Positions 8,622 through 10,575 of a DNA stretch of 64,000 bases are shown piece after piece. How positions within the stretch are numbered: position 1 is the first letter of the stretch; the number at the start of each line of letters is the position of its first letter. The notes under the pieces are model-generated. The model did not search any database. It worked only from the letters and a program-made list of their open reading frames with translations, and was not told the origin of the DNA. The translations under genes and the position numbers were made by a program. Source of the stretch: Limisalsivibrio acetivorans (GTDB lineage Bacteria > Chrysiogenota > Deferribacteres > Deferribacterales > Geovibrionaceae); assembly GCF_000421105.1 (NCBI RefSeq), contig NZ_ATWF01000002.1:124001-188000 (forward strand), given 5' to 3'.

Positions 8622-8975
8622 CTAAACCCTCTCTTTTAGGAATCCCCTGATTTCAAGCTCTCTTATGATAACAGCAGGATTTCGCTCACCACCTAGGAAA
8701 AGCGTTCCATTCAGGGAGATATACGGTAGAATGTTAAAATCACCGGCAATATCTGCAAACTCTTCCGGAAATTCGAATATTTCTGGACTGTTTACATCTA
8801 CAAATCGTACCTCAAACTCCTGCTCACCGAGTCTTTCGGCAAGCATAAAATGCAGCATACGGGTAAGCTCATGAAGACTATCTGCACCCCCCACGGGGGC
8901 GACCGGTAGAGGCATTCAACCGCTGGTGCATTCTTCCATAATGTCGATGATAAGTAGTTCCAGTTTCTTTTCCAT
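8622..8975 (-). CDS. Putative thioredoxin-fold selenoprotein with in-frame UGA
   Basis: Read from ATG 8975 (or in-frame ATG 8987) the frame gives 19 residues ending E-E-C-T-S-G, then a UGA at 8918-8916, then 97 more codons without interruption. The combined 117-residue product has a thioredoxin-like layout: first strand KLELLIIDI, an active-site-like C16-T-S-G-U20, a long helix, strand FEVRFVDV, a cis-proline-like ILPYISLNG and a last strand plus helix. Without the part before UGA the first strand and cysteine would be lost. A hairpin with a G-starting loop begins 14 bases after UGA, as in bacterial SECIS elements. Cys-x-x-Gly-Sec resembles, loosely, the C-x-x-C site of YuzD/DUF1462 proteins. 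Ribosome-binding signals are weak. A genuine nonsense mutation is the alternative. Confidence 0.6.
8885..8901 (-). promoter_or_regulatory. Candidate bacterial SECIS hairpin
   Basis: Downstream of the in-frame UGA (8918-8916) the transcript can form CGCCCCC / GGGGGUG, seven pairs with one G-U, closed by a GUG loop (8894-8892). The loop starts 22 bases after the UGA and its first base is G. Both values fall inside the usual bacterial SECIS limits (apical loop about 16-37 nt from UGA, G in the first two loop positions). Confidence 0.55.
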
Positions 8976-9083
8976 AAGAGACAACATATACCTTTTCGCA
9001 TATATTATCAAGAACTATTGCTCATAACCTCTGATTATGTATAATCAAAGAATACTTATAGTACAAAGATAACGGTGGAGTTT

Positions 9084-9701
9084 ATGGACAACCCTTTCGA
9101 GAATTTCTCGGATGAATACGATTCTTGGTTTGATAGAAACCCGCATCTGTTTGAGTCCGAAATTAAAGCATTAAAAGCAGCACAAAAAAAGGGAAGGTCA
9201 CTTGAAATTGGCATCGGAACAGGGCAGTTTGCCGTACCTTTAGGTATAGGCCACGGGGTGGAGCCTGCGCCGCAGATGTATAAGAAGCTTGCAGGAAGCG
9301 GAATACACATCATCAATGGGGTGGCGGAGGCTCTTCCCTATAAACCTGGAGCATTCGATTTTGTATTGATAGTAACCAGTATCTGCTTCGTTAAAGAGCC
9401 CCTGCAAGCAGTCGGAGAGGCATACCGAGTCCTAAGAAAAGGGGGCAGGCTCAGTATTGCTATCGTGGACAGAGAAAGTACCCTCGGCAAGGTGTATCTT
9501 GCCAAAAAGGATAAGAGCCTATTCTACGCAGAGGCCAAGTTCTTCTCATCTCATGAAATTTATATGCTCATGTTCAATTCCGGCTTCAAGGATATTTCCG
9601 CCTTGCAGACACTCTTCAGTATGGACAAAGAAAAAGTGGATGAGCCTGAACCGGGATACGGTAAAGGTAGTTTTGTGGTTATATCTGGTGAAAAGCTTTA
9701 G
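9084..9701 (+). CDS. Class I SAM-dependent methyltransferase
   Basis: 205-residue soluble protein with the Rossmann methyltransferase motifs: motif I LEIGIGTGQFA (SAM binding), VEPAPQMYK after strand 2, A-E-A-L-P-Y-K-P-G-A-F-D-F motif, and YRVLRKGGRL motif III. It belongs to the UbiE/Methyltransf_11 group; the substrate is unknown. I take the ATG at 9084, preceded by ggtggag, rather than the upstream in-frame GTG at 9075, which overlaps that site. It stands alone, divergent from the putative selenoprotein with about 100 bp between. Confidence 0.85.
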   Translation: MDNPFENFSDEYDSWFDRNPHLFESEIKALKAAQKKGRSLEIGIGTGQFAVPLGIGHGVEPAPQMYKKLAGSGIHIINGVAEALPYKPGAFDFVLIVTSICFVKEPLQAVGEAYRVLRKGGRLSIAIVDRESTLGKVYLAKKDKSLFYAEAKFFSSHEIYMLMFNSGFKDISALQTLFSMDKEKVDEPEPGYGKGSFVVISGEKL

Positions 9702-9882: not shown

Positions 9883-10575
9883 TCAGCCCCAGGTGATCTT
9901 TCCGCCGTTATACCCGATAACTGCAAGAACTGGAAGATTCAGGAATACGAGTGTATTATAAGCTATGCTTGCACCATCCCCTGTGTAGGAGATCTCCGGC
10001 CTTGAAAATCGCATAAGCACCTCGCAGGTTGTGATAACGAATAGTATCCCTGTGAATGAAAGCTTATACACAAAAACCTTGGTCGTCGAAAAGTTATAGT
10101 TTACCCACCAGCTGAAAAGCCCTGAACCTGCGGCGGGGAGTATGGAAACTGTACCCACAACGAGTGAATAGAATGCTGCCAGCTCGAAGGATGATTTCCC
10201 TGTAAGCAGGAAAACAGCCTGCATCATTATGGTGAAGGCCAGAAGCCCCATGGGATAATGAATAAACATTGGGTGCGGGTGCAGTCTACGGTATATCTCC
10301 CGTAGCTTATCCTCGGTTTCCTGCTCCTTATCCTTTGCCTCTTTTTCTTTTGAGCTTACAAGCTCATCTATAACCTCGAACCGCTCAAACACCTCATCGG
10401 CGTGGGGAGCCTTCTCCAAATCTTCGGTAAGGTCACGTCCTGCATAGTGCCTTTTAACGTGCTGCCCTTCCTTCCAGAGACGGCTTTCAGTAACATCATA
10501 AACCTTACCCTTAAAGCCAACGTATGCCTTACGCCCTTCTTTGCCGTCAAACTTACTCAGTTCTTCTCTATCCAA
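9883..10575 (-). CDS. Cytochrome b5-like domain fused to DUF2231 membrane domain
   Basis: 230 residues. Residues 5-75 form a cytochrome b5-like heme/steroid-binding domain (KAYVGFKGKVYDVTES, then GQHVKRHYAGRDLT and APHADEVF), with His39 and His58 as candidate axial heme ligands. A charged linker (about 75-95) leads to a DUF2231-type membrane domain with four helices starting at R-L-H-P-H-P-M-F-I-H-Y-P. The whole looks like a small membrane redox protein. The TTG start at 10575 is supported by AGGGGG six bases upstream. It is a single gene, divergent from the molybdopterin-binding operon. Confidence 0.8.
   Translation of the reverse strand: MDREELSKFDGKEGRKAYVGFKGKVYDVTESRLWKEGQHVKRHYAGRDLTEDLEKAPHADEVFERFEVIDELVSSKEKEAKDKEQETEDKLREIYRRLHPHPMFIHYPMGLLAFTIMMQAVFLLTGKSSFELAAFYSLVVGTVSILPAAGSGLFSWWVNYNFSTTKVFVYKLSFTGILFVITTCEVLMRFSRPEISYTGDGASIAYNTLVFLNLPVLAVIGYNGGKITWG

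Follow-up and report, generated by a model that had tools for sequence, protein, structure and literature searches.

Analysis of a 64,000-nucleotide stretch of the Limisalsivibrio acetivorans genome (the window) revealed a short gene predicted to encode a thioredoxin-fold selenoprotein, of a family that occurs across the phylum Deferribacterota and had not been catalogued before. The in-frame UGA of the window gene is almost certainly decoded as selenocysteine (Sec), actual insertion being derived here from computation. With nearly as much confidence, the gene is predicted to encode a selenoprotein of a Sec-containing family with a chalcogen-based active site; the redox substrate is left out of this estimate. 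The computed support consists of the family-wide conservation of the UGA, the presence of the Sec machinery, the conservation of a hairpin, coding sequence on both sides of the UGA and the fold class. What we infer is that Sec is indeed inserted and that the chemistry is redox, as well as which thiol resolves Sec and what the substrate would be.

The gene occupies positions 8622–8987 of the minus strand and was assigned from translation, homologues, profiles and models as a divergent Sec-containing relative of YuzD/DUF1462 with a thioredoxin-like fold. The earlier note, which gave no strand, described a frame interrupted by a UGA alone, and this holds for the minus strand, where 8987–8622 is open but for the UGA at 8918–8916. 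Translation of the plus strand over 8622–8987 gave several stops, and the gene is thus placed on the minus strand. The product is 117 residues long from the ATG at 8975 (MEKKLELLIIDIMEECTSG-U-MPLPVAPVGGADSLHELTRML..., with MPLPV directly after Sec and 19 codons ahead of the UGA) or 121 residues from the ATG at 8987. Because the ATG/TTG starts further upstream (8987/8984) are directly preceded by AAAAGG, the precise start is uncertain; the numbering used here is that of the 117-residue form, in which the UGA (8916–8918, minus strand) is predicted from its translation and from the family-wide TGA to encode Sec20. The single cysteine besides Sec is Cys16 (codon TGC, 8928–8930, minus strand), which by translation and alignment forms the motif C16-T-S-G-U20 and corresponds to the first Cys of the YuzD CxxC. 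The motif is a CxxxU, with three residues between Cys and Sec. The earlier note had drawn attention to this upstream cysteine; it is indeed present in the window gene, but it is a feature of the window paralogue and its orthologue, not of the family.

A profile search of 385 genomes retrieved 22 family genes in 19 genomes, all from one order; homologues from the same 19 genomes had also turned up among 100 relatives searched. An alignment-based search of contigs gave eight Deferribacterota loci, the related loci including those of Seleniivibrio, Denitrovibrio and Calditerrivibrio; a single-protein search of genome contigs with the window protein found no relatives. At residue 20, where the earlier note had expected homologues to have Cys or Sec, the aligned codon is TGA in 22/22 genes (Cys 0, TAA 0, TAG 0). 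No close Cys form of the family was found. Most members represent what we call the main form, which has the motif FVSGU-PSYFP-GCG (17 aligned sequences), Phe at the position of the window Cys16 and an invariant Cys nine residues past Sec (Cys29). One main-family copy (L068, G009:C4:31286-31627) has several odd substitutions (FHAGCG, SSHEILDYIDHV), and its hairpin stem is shortened; it may be decaying or reflect an assembly error.

In the seven inspected regions that carry it, the main form lies immediately 3' of genes that we take, from recognition of their sequences, to be purQ, purL and purF. In the Deferribacterota examined it thus closes a purQ-purL-purF operon. The source genome also has a main form (C2:114408-114752; L028/L062, L074), with equivalents in 18 other genomes. 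This gene is better conserved than the window gene, and the purF ahead of it terminates at an ordinary UGA, which lies a few bases short of the selenoprotein start. Judged by sequence and gene order, the window gene is an additional copy that has diverged from the main form, and one other genome (G009) shares its synteny. A lone sequence in that genome, L013 (33% identity), is its closest orthologue. The shared order comprises the Sec gene, a class I SAM methyltransferase (Methyltransf_11; 9075–9701, plus strand; 49% identity) transcribed divergently from it and, convergent with the methyltransferase, a membrane protein that carries Cyt-b5 and DUF2231 domains (9883–10575, minus strand; 51% identity), both assigned by domain and synteny. 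The methyltransferase and its homologues (L089-L102), which come from several phyla, are distantly like the UbiE, DVU_1556 and ArsM types. The protein is generic (UbiE/ArsM-like) and scores under all curated NCBIfam cut-offs, and it adjoins the Sec gene in two genomes only, the other homologues having no family member beside them; therefore no methylation pathway was inferred.

The machinery for Sec insertion, on which the earlier note had made its reading depend, is complete: selA, selB, selC and selD are all found in the genome (2.97 Mb in three contigs). The tRNA-Sec (selC) scores 63.6 bits against a cut-off of 47, in agreement with ARAGORN, and selA and selB are adjacent. The selD gene (L039, G000:C1:2107322-2108242) has an in-frame TGA of its own in a KAAGU-AAK context (AAGU motif), followed 17 nt after the UGA by a SECIS-like 8-bp hairpin with a GGC loop; the SelD of this organism is thus itself a predicted selenoprotein. 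Among the 19 carrier genomes tRNA-Sec was detected in 18, the one in which it was not detected being G010 (96% complete). The sister genus, which has no tRNA-Sec, has no family member either.

A putative SECIS hairpin is found at 8885–8901 (minus strand), assigned on geometry, family conservation and shuffles. Its arms (5', 8901–8895, CGCCCCC; 3', 8891–8885, GGGGGUG) form seven pairs around a GUG loop (8894–8892), which starts after a 21-nt spacer, so that the loop G is the 22nd nucleotide past the UGA, in line with the earlier note, which had placed a seven-pair hairpin with a G-starting loop 22 nt after the UGA. Bacterial SECIS elements are defined by a stem of 4–16 bp, a loop of 3–9 nt with a G in the first two loop positions, a distance of 16–37 nt from the UGA and an MFE of −7.5 kcal/mol or lower (PMC13188914). 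The window hairpin, with 7 bp, the GUG loop, 21 nt and an MFE of −11.7 kcal/mol, lies within all of these ranges. The two strands of the window together contain 2233 TGA trinucleotides; a 7-bp hairpin with a G-containing 3-nt loop at that distance occurs at this UGA only (1/2233), and any model-conforming hairpin of −11 kcal/mol or better at 0.8% of them. Relative to dinucleotide shuffles the folding energy is not conspicuous (z about 0), because the local sequence is rich in G+C, and such z-scores are uninformative here; the case rests on geometry and conservation.

The loop G lies 21 nt past the UGA across the main family as in the window gene, and 95% of the cells of the 7-pair stem are paired in the main family (18 genes, 17 distinct). 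Twelve double-changed cells occur at two stem positions (C-G/U-A/G-U and G-C/A-U), and the observed covariation was reached in none of 500 column shuffles; sliding the partner strand by 1–3 nt lowered the pairing to 39–58%. With the protein held constant, the mean pairing was 6.53 of 7 versus 4.42 in synonymous shuffles (the highest mean of 1000 being 5.12) for 17 genes, the window gene and L013 among them. These sequences are related, and the result is therefore strong without amounting to 17 independent tests. The hairpin of L013 is weaker and mismatched, and in homologues whose stem contains a Ser codon the hairpin is likewise weaker, with one internal mismatch. Synonymous diversity is reduced over the hairpin (pS of 0.49, versus 0.73 before and 0.77 after it). 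The codon of Gly30 is always GGG and the codon preceding the first Gly of GCG always NCA, in keeping with the needs of the stem. The Cys29 codon also falls inside the stem, and the invariance of Cys29 may therefore be due in part to constraint on the RNA.

The fold most resembles that of YuzD/DUF1462 (PDB 1XG8), which supports the thioredoxin-like fold proposed from the sequence. AlphaFold2 models (mean pLDDT 74 for the main form and 82 for the window protein) have the order beta-alpha-beta-alpha-beta-beta-alpha, and 1XG8 is the top Foldseek match of both (E=2.5e-4 and 1.1e-3, TM 0.56–0.61). The family profile matched 1XG8 in hmmsearch (E=0.011), and profile–profile alignment with YuzD gave a probability of 88 and E=3.5e-6 in hhalign, in which the second YuzD sequence was vetted solely by its strong match to 1XG8. 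Pfam DUF1462 (PF07315), a family assigned to the thioredoxin-like clan (PMC3091736), was detected at E<=0.05 in 13/17 members; one of these scores above the gathering threshold (25.7 vs 25), the others below it, and the window protein has no match. Pfam and NCBIfam scans with the window protein were empty, and troponin matches from a search of PDB sequences were dismissed as chance. The family resembles YuzD/DUF1462 (PF07315; 1XG8 is S. aureus SA0798) in size and thioredoxin-like fold, and the C-terminal two thirds can be aligned. In the alignment Sec20 falls on the second Cys of the YuzD CASC motif and the window Cys16 on the first. Unlike YuzD, the family has Sec in place of Cys and one extra Gly, giving CxxxU in the window protein and FVSGU in the main family instead of a CxxC after the first strand, and the active-site loop of the main family is longer.

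Thioredoxin-fold selenoproteins of known chemistry are mostly thiol-type redox enzymes. Uncharacterized ones are expected to be of that type as well (PMC13188914). A selenol nucleophile resolved by Cys16 is therefore the leading model. The hairpin, with its loop 21 nt past the UGA at 8918–8916, would direct SelB and Sec-tRNA to decode this UGA as selenocysteine. The product would be a thioredoxin-like protein of roughly 117 residues in which the CxxC of the YuzD type has presumably been turned into CxxxU. Sec20 would attack its substrate, a disulfide, peroxide or other oxidant, and would then be resolved by a nearby thiol, Cys16 in the window protein and perhaps Cys29 in the main family. The active-site loop has a pLDDT below 50, and the models therefore leave the Cys16–Sec20 distance unset. 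The protein is probably a cytosolic thiol/selenol oxidoreductase.

The main rival to a redox role retains Sec decoding and makes the product a metal(loid)-binding protein or chaperone, in which Sec, together with Cys close to it, would serve as a ligand of soft metals or metalloids (As, Hg, Se, Cu) in the manner of the ArsD loop cysteines, with no redox catalysis; we consider this unlikely. The link to ArsD (PF06953, an arsenic metallochaperone), which speaks for metal(loid) binding, comes from three comparisons. ArsD follows next after YuzD in the Foldseek search with the window model. An ArsD-like protein, L103, is the sole full-length match of the family profile outside the phylum (E=2e-4), and two further profile searches (386 genomes each, mostly overlapping the earlier sets) yielded only this protein there. 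In hhalign, Sec20 and Cys29 of the main family pair with loop Cys of an ArsD/L103 profile. ArsD, L103 and the family have in common a thioredoxin-like fold in which the first strand is followed by a thiol-bearing loop. L103 (L103:43-369) is Cys-rich, comes from an unrelated genome and adjoins a gene of the LMW-phosphatase type (arsenate-reductase-like). On the other hand, the alignment with ArsD is weaker (probability 56, E=1e-4) than that with YuzD, no family member tested matches Pfam ArsD, and the number and spacing of Cys/Sec differ. Neither Cys29 nor a third ligand is present in the window protein, which does not have the Cys trio of As(III) binding, the main family stands beside purine genes and not ars genes, and conservation of Cys29, its codon being in the SECIS stem, may be at the RNA level. 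More doubtful still is a broader proposal, that of a Deferribacterota-specific, Sec-only branch of the YuzD/ArsD group with a purine-coupled main form, in which selenium would serve as metal(loid) ligand or redox sensor and the partner thiol would have shifted in the window protein from Cys29 (after Sec) to Cys16 (before it). Such a shift, if true, would free the SECIS-encoded segment from protein constraint.

Far less probable than either is that the UGA is a true stop, with a short upstream ORF preceding or regulating an independent 97-residue protein. An ATG does directly follow the UGA in the window gene and in L013. No Shine-Dalgarno sequence was seen ahead of this ATG in the window gene, in line with the earlier note, and the main family has Ser, Ala, Asn or Gly codons after the UGA and no start. 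The 19 codons upstream of the UGA supply the first beta strand, as had been proposed and as translation and the window-protein model agree, and the pN/pS ahead of the UGA is 0.26; the upstream segment is therefore a translated protein under purifying selection. Also, none of the 22 genes has TAA or TAG at this codon, and the SECIS geometry is conserved. A pseudogene or sequencing error, by which a sense codon was mutated or misread as TGA, would suit a short gene with a single in-frame stop but can practically be dismissed, since the TGA is kept in 22 genes of 19 genomes, including the orthologue L013, along with the hairpin.

The Sec-containing family shares a small thioredoxin fold, an active-site Sec and a bacterial SECIS hairpin with catalogued thioredoxin-like bacterial selenoproteins (UxxC, CxxU, CxU, VPGUxxT, GUXX-star and others; PMC13188914, Table 1). 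It differs from all of them in that DUF1462/YuzD and CxxxU are absent from that catalogue of May 2026, which comprises 119 prokaryotic selenoprotein families and subfamilies (PMC13188914). NCBIfam release 20 (June 2026) has no matching model, and a deep-Sep study does not mention Deferribacterota (PMC12013277). Literature on YuzD, DUF1462 and Deferribacteres selenoproteins contained nothing on the family; subscription papers and supplements were outside this scope, and an earlier mention there is possible. Because no close Cys form was found, the family is likely to escape methods that depend on close Cys homologues.

Overall, the data add a selenoprotein family to those of the 119-family catalogue and NCBIfam release 20. 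Its fixed position as the closing gene of the purine operon points to a function that merits testing, and the family offers a handle on the uncharacterized YuzD family.
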